The notes below the pieces were generated by a model. It was not told the DNA's origin and did no database searches. It saw nothing but the letters and a program-made list of their open reading frames with translations. This document shows, piece after piece, positions 846-8,159 of a stretch of 35,872 bases of DNA. The stretch comes from Bacteroidales bacterium Bact_13 (GTDB taxonomy: Bacteria > Bacteroidota > Bacteroidia > Bacteroidales > UBA932): NCBI GenBank assembly GCA_001602845.1, contig LUZE01000124.1, forward strand, positions 1 to 35,872. Direction: 5' to 3'. Every line of letters begins with the position of its first letter. The stretch's first letter is position 1. The position numbers and the translations under genes were made by a program.

Positions 846-853
846 TATCCTTG
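846..853 (+). promoter_or_regulatory. Probable -7 box of the secreted-protein gene at 878
   Basis: TATCCTTG matches TAnnTTTG at all but one position and lies 24 nt upstream of the ATG at 878. Its -33 region would fall in the second operator-like palindrome (817-835), which would place this gene under the same repressor as the divergent operon. Confidence 0.45.
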
Positions 854-877
854 TATATGAGGTGCTTCGTGAAAAGA

Positions 878-1534
878 ATGAAGCACTATCCCGCCCTTAC
901 CTTGCTTGCCGCTCTCCTGCTGGCAGCCCTTGCTTCCCGCCCGGCTTTCGGACAGGATCTGGATTCCCTGATGCGGAGGGAGGCCCTGCTTTCGGATGAG
1001 GCGGAGCGCTATGTCTCCATGGCGCTGCGGGACGGACTCATCGGTGAGCGGGACGCCGACAGCCTGCGGCAAAAGTGTCGGATTCAGGCCGGCGACGGGG
1101 TCCGGCTCACCGTCCTGCAGAATGTCATCCAGACCATCGACAACCTGTATGAATCAGCTTTCTCCGCGTTTCAGGAACCGATGATCGCCCTGCAGCTGGA
1201 CAAAGCATTGGGCAGCCGGATGTTGCCCGGTATCCTCACGTTACCTGAAGATCATCTTACAACGCGGGAGCGAAGACAGTTGCAGGAAGCTGCAGCCGTC
1301 CGCAGGATGACCGACGACCTGGCAGAAGCCGTCGCACTCCCCGAACTCCGGCCCATCGACCACTTTTTCCTGCACGTCGCCCGCTACTTCTTCAACCACC
1401 ACCCCGAAAACTACGGCAAAGAAATCCCGATGAACGGAGGAATCTATACCATCCGCGTCCCGGAAATGCCGCATCTTCCCGGCGGGAAGGAACTGAGCAC
1501 CAATACTTATGAAATGGGGCGTGGCAGCAAGTAA
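878..1534 (+). CDS. Secreted or periplasmic protein of unknown function
   Basis: This is a 218-residue protein with a clear N-terminal signal peptide (MKHYPALTL, a Leu/Ala-rich core, then a likely signal peptidase I site after AFGQ). I do not recognise the family. The mature part is mainly helical and charged (LMRREALLSDEAERYVSMAL, LTTRERRQLQEAAAVRRM), with an aromatic/His stretch near the end (HFFLHVARYFFNHHPENYG) and no known catalytic signature. The ATG at 878 was chosen because it sits directly before the signal peptide; in-frame starts at 851 (TTG) and 857 would overlap or crowd the promoter. It is divergent from the DUF2975-XRE operon and shares its operator region. Its last codons and stop lie inside the outer arm of a 106-bp palindromic repeat. 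Confidence 0.7.
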   Translation: MKHYPALTLLAALLLAALASRPAFGQDLDSLMRREALLSDEAERYVSMALRDGLIGERDADSLRQKCRIQAGDGVRLTVLQNVIQTIDNLYESAFSAFQEPMIALQLDKALGSRMLPGILTLPEDHLTTRERRQLQEAAAVRRMTDDLAEAVALPELRPIDHFFLHVARYFFNHHPENYGKEIPMNGGIYTIRVPEMPHLPGGKELSTNTYEMGRGSK

Positions 1535-1626
1535 TCTGATTACTAGCGTTTTATGCATAATCGGTTGCGTCAAAATACGCAACCGATTTCCAGGATCAAG
1601 CTGGTAATCAACCTTTTATCCGCCAC
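1521..1626. repeat. 106-bp REPIN-like element, copy 1 (left of RAYT)
   Basis: This is an imperfect palindrome with the plan 23-nt foot (1521-1543), 15-nt spacer, 30-nt central hairpin (1559-1588), 15-nt spacer and 23-nt inverted foot (1604-1626). The central hairpin has a perfect 12-bp stem, AATCGGTTGCGT with ACGCAACCGATT, and a CAAAAT loop. The feet begin or end with GTGGC...TGATTAC and its complement GTAATCA...CCGCCAC. The left foot overlaps the last codons and stop of the preceding gene; the hairpin may also act as its terminator. Confidence 0.85.
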
Positions 1627-1636
1627 ACTTAAATAA

Positions 1637-2560
1637 TCACAACAGCGATAGATGCAGGAATTTGGATATCTGGCGGGGAGAAGCCCCCGTTTCCGCTGAA
1701 AGGATCCAGGCAAGTCTGCGTTTCTCTACATCGGGCAGCGACAAAACATCTTTCATATCCTTATAGCTCGTCATCTTTCTAACAATAGCAGACATCCGTT
1801 TGAAAGTAGCGTCCGAATCCGGCCATATTTCCTCTCTGATCTGGTACTCGCTTCCGGTATTCGAATGAATGGCAGTAAGCAGCGTTTCAAAATCCTCATA
1901 GTAAGAAGACAAGTCTTGATAATCGACGCAGTTATATTGCACGATTATATAATCCGTCAACTGCCGTATTTCCCCCGCCGAAAGATCTTTAATGATTCGT
2001 TCGATGAATTCATACCCCAACGGAGTGTCTGATTCCCGCAACGAACGCACCTCCGTAACTGCCCGGCGCATGGCCTGACGGGCAGAACGCACACGGAAAG
2101 GCTCGGAAAATGGATGGTCATTCCGCGAATAATCCAGAAAATTCCACTGAAACTCTTCTGCTTTTCCACATAGTTTCTTTTCGACAGGATTATTGTATAA
2201 ATAGGCTATGGCCGTCCTGGCTTTTTTATCGTCAACCTTTGGCGCACTACCAAACCGGTGTCTGAAAAAGTCTCCCTTTCTCTGGTAACGGATATTTCGC
2301 AGCCGGGCAAAGCGACAGGTGTAATCACGGACGAATGCAGACATATCCGCTTTGCAGGATGCTTTTACAAGAACATGGATATGATCGTACATCAAGCAGA
2401 TTCCCAGCACCCGGATATTATACTTTCTGGCTACGGTACAGAACAATGTGAAGAAAACCAGGAAATCGCGCTTATCATAAAAAATCAGATAACCATCGAT
2501 TGTTCGCTGATAGATATGATGGAGAGCCCCCACCTTGAAAATCCGTTTTCGTCCCTTCAT
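1637..2560 (-). CDS. REP-associated tyrosine transposase (RAYT), Y1/HUH family
   Basis: This 307-residue protein belongs to the IS200-like Y1 transposase superfamily. The HUH metal-binding motif is visible as H60-I-H62 in MYDHIHVLVKAS, and the catalytic tyrosine is probably Y120 in AIAYLYNNPVEKKL, at the place of the conserved Y-I-H-x-NPV motif of RAYT proteins. Family members nick single-stranded DNA next to REP hairpins. The C-terminal region (about 150-307) goes beyond the catalytic core and ends in a helix-turn-helix-like stretch (GASPRQISKFLHLSLL); extended C-termini are known in RAYTs. The gene appears intact, has its own promoter (2585-2616), and is flanked on both sides by copies of a 106-bp palindrome. 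The ATG at 2560 fits the usual N-terminal start (RIFKVGALHHIYQRT). Confidence 0.9.
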   Translation of the reverse strand: MKGRKRIFKVGALHHIYQRTIDGYLIFYDKRDFLVFFTLFCTVARKYNIRVLGICLMYDHIHVLVKASCKADMSAFVRDYTCRFARLRNIRYQRKGDFFRHRFGSAPKVDDKKARTAIAYLYNNPVEKKLCGKAEEFQWNFLDYSRNDHPFSEPFRVRSARQAMRRAVTEVRSLRESDTPLGYEFIERIIKDLSAGEIRQLTDYIIVQYNCVDYQDLSSYYEDFETLLTAIHSNTGSEYQIREEIWPDSDATFKRMSAIVRKMTSYKDMKDVLSLPDVEKRRLAWILSAETGASPRQISKFLHLSLL

Positions 2561-2584
2561 AGCTTTATCACATTACGGTCTTTG

Positions 2585-2616
2585 CAAAGATAGTACGAGA
2601 AAGGTCTTTTTGCAAA
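2585..2616 (-). promoter_or_regulatory. Promoter of the RAYT gene
   Basis: On the minus strand TTTG (2616-2613), a 20-nt spacer and TATCTTTG (2592-2585) form an exact match to the Bacteroidetes -33/-7 promoter. The predicted transcript starts roughly 19 nt before the ATG. It lies inside the two REPIN-like repeats, so the gene carries its own promoter. Confidence 0.8.
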
Positions 2617-2629
2617 AAATAAAAATACT

Positions 2630-2735
2630 GTGGTGGATAACCCCCTGATTATCAGACAAAACACACTAATCGGTTGCGCCAAATGACGCAACCGATTTCA
2701 TGCAAAGCCTTGAGAATCAGCACCCCCAGCGCCAC
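2630..2735. repeat. 106-bp REPIN-like element, copy 2 (right of RAYT)
   Basis: It has the same 23 + 15 + 30 + 15 + 23 plan as copy 1 with no length difference. The feet are 2630-2652 (starting GTGGTGGATAA) and 2713-2735 (ending CGCCAC, more diverged). The central hairpin at 2668-2697 has an 11-bp stem AATCGGTTGCG with CGCAACCGATT and an 8-nt loop. It ends 18 bp from the stop codon of the outer-membrane receptor gene. Confidence 0.85.
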
Positions 2736-7367: not shown

Positions 7368-8079
7368 CAGAAGCGCAGGCTTTCAAAGCCTCGTAGACGG
7401 CCTTGACCACCAACGGCTCCATCACTTCGTAGCCGGCCGCCACAGGATGGACACCATCGTTGGAATAAGCCGGATTGAGGGCGCGGGACGGATCGGAAAC
7501 GACCATCGCTGAATAATAATCGACGTACGGAATACCCTTCGACGCAGCGTAGGCGCGGATGCGCTTATTGAGCGCGGCGATCTTGTCGGCCGCATCGGTG
7601 ATGGAAGGACGCCAGCGGAAAGCAGCGGCGGGAAGCACCGAGGTCAGCACGACGGCAATGCCGTTCGCCTGCGCCAGTTCGGTCATCGAAATGATGTTCC
7701 CCAGCGTAAAGTCCTCATTGTAAGGACCCTGATTCTCAGCCACATCGTTGGTTCCCGCATTGATGACCACCACCGCCGGATGCAGGTCGATGACATCCTG
7801 ACGGAAACGCACCAGCATCTGCGCCGACACCTGGCCGCTGATGCCGCGACCGACATAATCCGAGCCTTCGAAAAACGCCGGATGCCGGTCCGGCCAAATC
7901 TCCGTGATGGAATCGCCCATCAGCACCACCCGCGACTGTCCCGCAGCCGGCTCCGCCAGCGCAGCATTCGCAGCCGCAAACTTCTGCAGCCCGCCCCAAT
8001 CCTGGGCGACAGCCCCGAAAGGAGCCACAAACAAACTGGTCGCCACAATAAGCGTGGCAAATAACCTTCTGATACTCAT
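7345..8079 (-). CDS. Secreted SGNH/GDSL-family hydrolase
   Basis: This 244-residue esterase-type enzyme has a signal peptide (MSIRRLFATLIVATSLF, cleavage near AVAQ). The four family blocks are visible: block I VVLMGDSIT with the nucleophile Ser, block II GISGQ with the oxyanion Gly, block III VINAGTND with the Asn, and block V DGVHP with the catalytic Asp and His. Such enzymes deacetylate glycans or hydrolyse lipids; the substrate cannot be read here. The ATG at 8079 fits the signal peptide. A longer in-frame start at 8115 would begin inside the repeat hairpin. Notably, the start codon and first eight or so codons lie inside a 106-bp REPIN-like repeat (8054-8159), which also forms the whole leader region. 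Confidence 0.88.
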   Translation of the reverse strand: MSIRRLFATLIVATSLFVAPFGAVAQDWGGLQKFAAANAALAEPAAGQSRVVLMGDSITEIWPDRHPAFFEGSDYVGRGISGQVSAQMLVRFRQDVIDLHPAVVVINAGTNDVAENQGPYNEDFTLGNIISMTELAQANGIAVVLTSVLPAAAFRWRPSITDAADKIAALNKRIRAYAASKGIPYVDYYSAMVVSDPSRALNPAYSNDGVHPVAAGYEVMEPLVVKAVYEALKACASDDCDCCR

Positions 8080-8159
8080 CGTTTTGTTTATTTTCGGTTG
8101 CGCATTTTGACGCAACCGATTTATAATAAATAATTAGTAATCAACCACTTATCCGCCAC
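8054..8159. repeat. 106-bp REPIN-like element, copy 3
   Basis: A third copy, 5.3 kb from the RAYT unit, has the same plan and the same length as the other two. The left foot 8054-8076 (GTGGC..ATAA......TGAT) is diverged. The central hairpin at 8094-8119 (TCGGTTGCG with CGCAACCGA, loop CATTTTGA) and the right foot 8137-8159 (GTAATCAACC..TTATCCGCCAC) are well conserved. The left foot is read as codons 2-9 of the SGNH hydrolase, and the left spacer carries its ATG. Confidence 0.8.

Follow-up and report, generated by a model that had tools for sequence, protein, structure and literature searches.

The stretch of DNA studied here, referred to as the window in the following, comprises positions 1 to 35,872 (35,872 nucleotides, forward strand) of contig LUZE01000124.1 from Bacteroidales bacterium Bact_13 (GCA_001602845.1; Bacteroidales, UBA932). 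It quite probably harbors a REPIN-like system, that is, a branch of the RAYT transposases (tyrosine transposases associated with repetitive extragenic palindromes, REPs) that serves a family of miniature palindromic elements. Judging from the sequences, this system most likely follows an unusual division of labor, in which the feet and the middle block of each element would be read as sequence and the central stem would form the lineage-specific part. The association between gene and elements, the copy number, the fixed geometry, the lineage-specific stems and the covariation within these stems can all be seen directly in the genomes compared.

The gene in question (1637–2560, reverse strand) is intact and, according to its open reading frame (ORF) and to profile and fold comparison, encodes a RAYT-like transposase of 307 residues. 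It is bracketed by two palindromes, at 1521–1626 on its 3' side and at 2630–2735 on its 5' side, which share the length of 106 bp and the layout (23-15-30-15-23) that the initial annotation had ascribed to them. Their 30-nt central hairpins (1559–1588, loop 1570–1577; 2668–2697, loop 2679–2686) consist of 11-bp arms and an 8-nt loop; the window contains three such hairpins, compared with none in 100 dinucleotide shuffles, and the third of them (8092–8121, two mismatches) marks a dispersed palindrome of 106 bp at 8054–8159. Each half-element combines an outer foot, here GTGGC, with a CTGATNATCAG-like middle block and the hairpin arm, and the distances between these three blocks are fixed. In the first copy, the foot GTGGC (1521–1525, forward strand) is mirrored by GCCAC (1622–1626); in the second, the feet are GTGGT (2630–2634) and GCCAC (2731–2735). 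The middle block, similar to YTGATTATCAGC, falls, by the layout, at 1536–1547 and in mirror image at 1600–1611 in the first copy, and at 2645–2656 and 2709–2720 in the second. Across 206 half-sites (from 103 finder hits, one of them by chance), the strongly conserved parts are GTGGC (positions 1–5), A10, YTGA...TCAG (16–26), TT (31–32) and the stem AATCGNNTGCG (39–49). This bears out GTGG and the central arms as conserved parts, as previously noted, but not GATAA, which is weakly conserved. In single-strand folding, both strands of each of the three copies in the window exceed shuffles in stability (z −3.6 to −5.8). The elements thus have the hallmark of REPINs, a spacer of constant length between two inverted conserved ends that are able to pair as a hairpin.

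The encoded protein is composed of an HUH/Y1 domain (approximately residues 1–125) and a helical C-terminal region (approximately 146–307), and its motif H60-I-H62 and Y120 are invariant among 13 aligned sequences. It thereby combines the Y1 transposase fold, the HUH motif and the catalytic tyrosine that characterize RAYT (TnpA-REP) proteins, and its nearest solved fold is indeed a RAYT. Moreover, the gene is delimited by dispersed, coevolving inverted palindromes, the feature by which the relevant passages of PMC2817692 define RAYTs. At E ≤ 1e-5, the source genome contains this gene and one distant relative, a Y1 transposase with 27% identity (G000:C32:5828-6175), and nothing more.

The source genome (G000) is a metagenome-assembled genome (MAG) of 2.1 Mb in 178 contigs with 92% completeness. 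Searched with the hairpin alone (up to three mismatches, no foot condition), it yielded 16 full copies, compared with none for a reversed-pattern control, and GTGG and CCAC lie exactly 38 nt outside the hairpin in all 16. The possibility raised at the outset that there might be just the three copies of the window can hence be dismissed. A 17th copy (L226, G000:C38) is cut by a contig end; such elements may break assemblies, and copy numbers in MAGs may therefore be low. The spacing of the feet, scored as at least 6 of 10 foot letters, is kept in 39 of 40 hairpins that were fetched without a foot condition (G000 16/16, G023 13/13, G033 7/7, G035 2/2, G034 1/2); this set excludes four of the six hairpins of G038, which were not fetched, and the copies of G014, G015 and G016, which were fetched with a foot-containing pattern. 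All hairpins fetched from G033 (7/7) and G035 (2/2) have CTGGC, ATGGC or TTGGC in one foot or in both. A search for solitary halves with up to one mismatch returned 17 matches, of which 13 lie in full copies and one in the contig-cut copy; the remaining three, with one mismatch each, have no partner within 106 bp and may be chance matches or solitary halves, given a pattern that finds just 13 of the 32 half-sites of known copies.

Across 40 genomes of the genus, the elements are strongly associated with the transposase, with G014 and G033 as exceptions. All eight genomes with a RAYT at least 66% identical to that of the window hold 6–18 elements, compared with seven of the 32 without one that hold any; the copies are thus far from being equally common in its absence, the outcome that would have spoken against the initial annotation. 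Five or more elements with a GTGG foot were found in one of these 32 genomes (G014, with 13), or in two if the CTGG-foot hairpins of G033 are counted.

The same association holds beside more distant transposases. We surveyed the flanks of 46 distinct RAYT proteins with fetched loci, that of the window included. Palindromes are present on 20/20 flanks at 60% identity or more (10 RAYTs, both sides), on 17/22 at 45–60%, on 20/40 at 36–45% and on 0/9 below 36%; they are absent from all 455 dinucleotide-shuffled flanks and were found in 2 of 166 other 480-bp windows from 13 loci, both at known dispersed copies. Many RAYTs at 36–60% identity are flanked by versions with other feet and stems: the feet vary by clade (GTGGC, CTGGAG, GTGGAG, TTGGC, GTGCAC, CTGCAA and others), and the stems include GTGTGCG at L038 and CCCTTGCG at L041. 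The conservation of the middle block between clades is partly built in, because the first subfamily's middle block was part of the finder; a similar block was, however, seen by eye at many loci in a first survey made without it. The central stem is what differs by RAYT lineage, together with the outer foot when clades are compared. Accordingly, agreement of the central stem is 0.93 between the two flanks of one RAYT (n = 23, lowest 0.62) and 0.58–0.59 between distant RAYTs, with a Mantel r of 0.29 that none of 2000 permutations reached (34 RAYTs). Dispersed copies likewise carry the stem of the resident RAYT's flank in 81 of 124 arms (six genomes; 12 of 720 genome permutations as high). As for its range, a profile of the RAYT branch (E ≤ 1e-30) matched 46 of the 249 genomes sampled from the family, these matches falling in 5 of 25 genera; in draws from the order (344 genomes) and the phylum (395), which include some genomes of the same family, the window's own genome was the sole match. 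Among the sampled genomes, the branch is therefore confined to one Bacteroidales family.

In a set of 101 distinct copies (the finder hits minus the chance hit and one near-duplicate), the central stem covaries from arm to arm, at position 44 (z 7.2) and position 45 (z 4.3), and none of 2000 shuffles reached the value of the stem as a whole. By contrast, no block of positions 1–38 shows left-right covariation, and no covariation was found for the pairs tested inside a half, which thus do not resemble the REP head with its own palindrome. Since the feet lack covariation both within a half and between halves, they are not classical REP hairpins, and because the half-sites show no internal pair covariation, we file the family as REPIN-like rather than REPIN. 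The reading as a REPIN/RAYT-like system, proposed from the window, thus stands with regard to the Y1/HUH protein and its flanking and dispersed palindromes, but does not extend to feet of the classical REP type.

This pattern could also be accommodated by a double-stranded dyad binding site, bound, for instance, by the helical C-terminal part of a RAYT that acts as a regulator or chromosome organizer, with single-strand cutting playing no part today. Feet and middle blocks that are conserved as sequence without pairing covariation are what such a site would display, as is the maintenance of copies in place, and the C-terminal region gives a weak HTH_23 (helix-turn-helix) signal (E ≤ 1 for 6 of 13 members, 0.0034 at best), although the window protein's own match scores 14.1 bits against a cut-off of 24.6 and the fold matches of the region are weak. 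We nevertheless consider this account unlikely: a pure binding protein would have no need of the HUH motif and tyrosine that are invariant in the alignment, the covariation of the stem and the flipping of the loop described below fit a hairpin that forms in vivo, and two pairs of elements suggest copying.

A second subfamily, searched with its exact foot and a free span of 102–118 bp, comprises 39 copies dispersed in 8 of the 40 genomes, 18 of them in a single genome. Its span is 105 bp in 37 of 38 fetched copies; as the foot was exact in the search, foot conservation cannot be assessed in this set. The 37 copies of equal span again show covariation in the stem (z 4.4, 0/2000), and their halves are less alike than expected in the middle block (z −4.0) and the inner spacer (z −3.7). 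Furthermore, 23 of 38 copies are mixed in middle-block type, a number reached by 46 of 5000 shuffles, and the second type never occurs on both halves. This suggests that the elements of this subfamily have two unlike ends, which offers a handle on left and right. About eight bases past the searched foot, its copies (L259–L296) have a conserved T-rich stretch and a CGC run, so that the actual unit exceeds 105 bp. G009:C30 and G037:C10 have a near-identical element of this subfamily in common, and in G014 (L202, the site of L011) a palindrome of the second subfamily comes immediately after the left-hand gene, which in the source genome is followed by one of the first.

Many copies are found at orthologous sites across genomes; for instance, that at 8054–8159 has counterparts in L085, L112 and L131 with both flanks, and in L024 with one. 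We assembled 25 pairs whose flanks are homologous to either side of the element, leaving out the RAYT-flanking copies and the pair L122/L129; the pairs have elements in common and are hence not independent. Orthologs exceed paralogs in spacer identity (0.51 vs 0.37), and yet the reverse holds for the dinucleotide agreement of the stem (0.28 vs 0.64). The stem differs in 20 of the 25 pairs, on both arms in 16. The copies are thus kept at orthologous sites while their stems change in step with those of other copies in the same genome. When oriented by the flanks, the loop is flipped in 12 of 25 pairs, in comparison to arms that match the orientation of the flanks in 20. Loops, orientation aside, are barely more alike in paralogs with the same stem (0.76) than in orthologs (0.69–0.70), so that replacement of the whole hairpin is not evident. 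Close to two of the element sites in the source genome (L006 and L015) there are stretches that are paralogous to each other (72% DNA identity over 543 bp), and several genomes retain copies at the two sites. The elements of L122 (G009:C23) and L129 (G019:C11) are near-identical, and their flanks are 99.3% identical (over 1 kb) to one side and 87.9% identical to the opposite side, a likeness attributable to recent transfer or to cross-binning of MAG contigs.

Changing stems and flipping loops need not involve the transposase. Small hairpin-associated inversions are common in plastid DNA, and an 11-bp inverted repeat might acquire both kinds of change through ordinary template switching, independently of the RAYT; the mixed stems in L085 and L112 are what one-arm intermediates would look like. 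This possibility deserves to be taken seriously, but we regard it as rather doubtful, as it leaves unexplained why the stems of paralogs agree more than those of orthologs and why they agree with the flanks of the resident RAYT. Conversely, a more far-reaching and quite speculative proposal, which we would not favor, is that the central hairpin is a lineage-specific address rewritten in place, making the elements self-updating genomic marks in step with the current transposase. The sites would then be fixed over the divergence of species, the RAYT, or conversion begun by its nicking, would rewrite and flip the hairpin, and the halves would be non-equivalent in at least one subfamily.

The case for copying to new sites is suggestive and comes from two similar pairs at unrelated places of one genome each: the likeness of L135 and L141 (88%) covers the element and extends 6 nt past it on each side, and that of L093 and L098 (86%) covers the element and extends past it by 7 nt at one end and by about 2 nt at the other end. 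In L137 and L140, one half is far more alike than the other (0.92 vs 0.68). At the L003 site, the flanks in G014 are colinear with those of the source genome and separated by 34 bp, compared with 142 bp including the element, and G025 has 184 bp of other DNA there; the site is thus empty in G014, which may reflect either a gain or a loss. Five first-subfamily copies of G014 (L076, L081, L084, L086 and L088) lie in shared stretches of about 150–930 bp with 78–94% identity, and since these stretches exceed the element, the copies look like parts of larger repeats.

With regard to placement, a simple ORF heuristic assigned 44 of 102 copies to convergent, 31 to co-directional and 7 to divergent positions, with 20 unplaced; some ORFs overlapping elements are surely spurious. 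The many convergent neighbors bring to mind bidirectional terminators or 3'-end stabilizers, kept for ending transcripts, with a link to the RAYT that is historical. Such a role would agree with the A's before and T's after the stem in the first subfamily, with one terminator-like site scored on the element at 2668–2697, and with retention at orthologous sites, which fits a benefit to the host. However, a terminator would require neither the fixed length of 106 bp nor feet nor a middle block, and the stems of the elements change with the RAYT lineage and do not in all cases have T's after them (L057 and L058, by eye). The terminator scan as a whole is close to shuffles (2 vs 1.7), and convergent or unidirectional placement is also reported for REPs (PMC3733652). 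We therefore judge this explanation improbable as the main one. Terminator, double-strand site and template switching are nonetheless mutually compatible, and their odds overlap with those of the RAYT-based account. The outer part of the element often supplies a stop codon: a neighboring ORF (851–1534, forward strand) ends inside the left half of the first palindrome, as do genes at several other loci.

Several observations weigh against a REPIN-like system. The protein scores 50.9 bits against NCBIfam NF047646 (REP_Tyr_transpos) and does not reach the cut-off of 80, which places it as a distant relative of this family and not as a curated equivalog. G014 has its 13 copies without any RAYT match, and G033 has seven with distant RAYTs only (47% and 43%); as both MAGs are incomplete (87% and 78%), gene loss cannot be distinguished from a missed gene. 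G017, G021, G034, G035 and G037 also contain 1–4 copies without a RAYT of at least 66% identity, and the reversed-pattern control matched once per strand in one genus genome, G032. Half of the flanks at 36–45% identity gave no palindrome, and G016 and G023 carry stem types unlike those flanking their cognate RAYT, although the second RAYT of G016 was outside the comparison. Recent copying is rare, with just the two clean pairs and a median paralog identity of 0.66, and the overlap with a kept ORF exceeds 30 nt in 37 of the 102 copies. Finally, the Fisher, permutation and Wilcoxon tests count related genomes and re-used elements as independent, and their p-values are therefore too small.

On balance, we favor a REPIN-like system, for which the following course of events can be envisaged. 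The gene of a RAYT-type HUH single-strand endonuclease or transposase would lie between two copies of the element that this enzyme recognizes, and the 14 further full copies would be non-autonomous miniature elements spread through the genome. The central hairpin may extrude once the element becomes single-stranded, for instance on the lagging strand; the protein would read stem and feet and cut at a distance of a few bases beyond the latter, and the unit that is copied or moved would therefore slightly exceed 106 bp. Changes in the stem may be driven by tracking of the specificity of the RAYT, either via selection or via conversion between copies. Recognition, cutting and the single-strand step are proposed by analogy with the family. 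As orthologous sites differ in their stems between species, one may ask whether it is selection or conversion that keeps dispersed sites in step with their transposase. Likewise, as the central hairpin differs by transposase lineage, the recognition of dispersed sites by the RAYT is open to experiment, and some tens of RAYT-palindrome pairs from one family, with similar geometry and different stems, constitute a natural experiment in the underlying recognition code.

RAYTs with flanking palindromes, and the coevolution of the two, are in print, and the latter has been worked out mainly in Proteobacteria, as far as the pertinent sections of PMC2817692, PMC3116915, PMC3733652, PMC8266576 and PMC6006769 indicate. 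The initial annotation had considered a Bacteroidales version to be possibly undescribed. This does not hold for the general kind, since PMC6006769 (Quentin 2018) already includes two comparable groups: TnpA-Y1 subclass 2.4 with 'double foot' REPs, which carry GT[AG]G and its complement at opposite ends, and subclass 2.6, in which genes of Bacteroidetes lie between 'atypical secondary structures' that recur at other places. No description of the 307-residue branch, the three-block palindrome or the change of stems in place was found among the literature matches listed or in the passages of PMC11194056, a scope that leaves out subscription papers and supplements. According to Table 1 of PMC6006769, proteins of subclasses 2.4 and 2.6 have median lengths of 194 and 179 residues, compared with 307 here, and motifs of the form NH[..]H and YIxNNP or YIH[QN]NP, compared with DHIH and YLYNNP in the window. 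The window protein thus departs from subclass 2.6 as characterized there (a median of about 179 residues, NH[LIV]H, YIH[QN]NP); the elements may still be identical with those of 2.6.

Further parallels, putative for the HTH-like region, exist with the TIRYT or TIRtron group (subclass 2.1), which the corresponding passages of PMC3733652 (Di Nocera 2013) and PMC6006769 describe as longer Y1 proteins with C-terminal HTH-like regions, whose genes are flanked by inverted repeats, some of them dispersed as families and some 'double palindromic'. The GGGGWSAS of TIRYT flanking repeats is not seen by eye (no systematic scan was made) in the listed feet of our elements, which have a fixed three-block layout. 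With IS200/IS605 elements, the system has the HUH/Y1 fold, the catalytic residues and hairpin-marked DNA in common, but several near-identical copies of the gene were not found in its own genome, a MAG of 92% completeness. The system also resembles the REPINs and RAYTs of Pseudomonas fluorescens, which, in the account of them in PMC3116915 (Bertels and Rainey 2011), are likewise short, dispersed palindromic doublets outside genes, with inverted ends, a spacer whose length matters and a linked Y1 transposase gene. In contrast to these, the elements described here are few (6–18 in genomes with a cognate RAYT) and diverged (median identity 0.66), and their conserved halves lack a covarying hairpin, the lineage-specific part being instead the center of the element.
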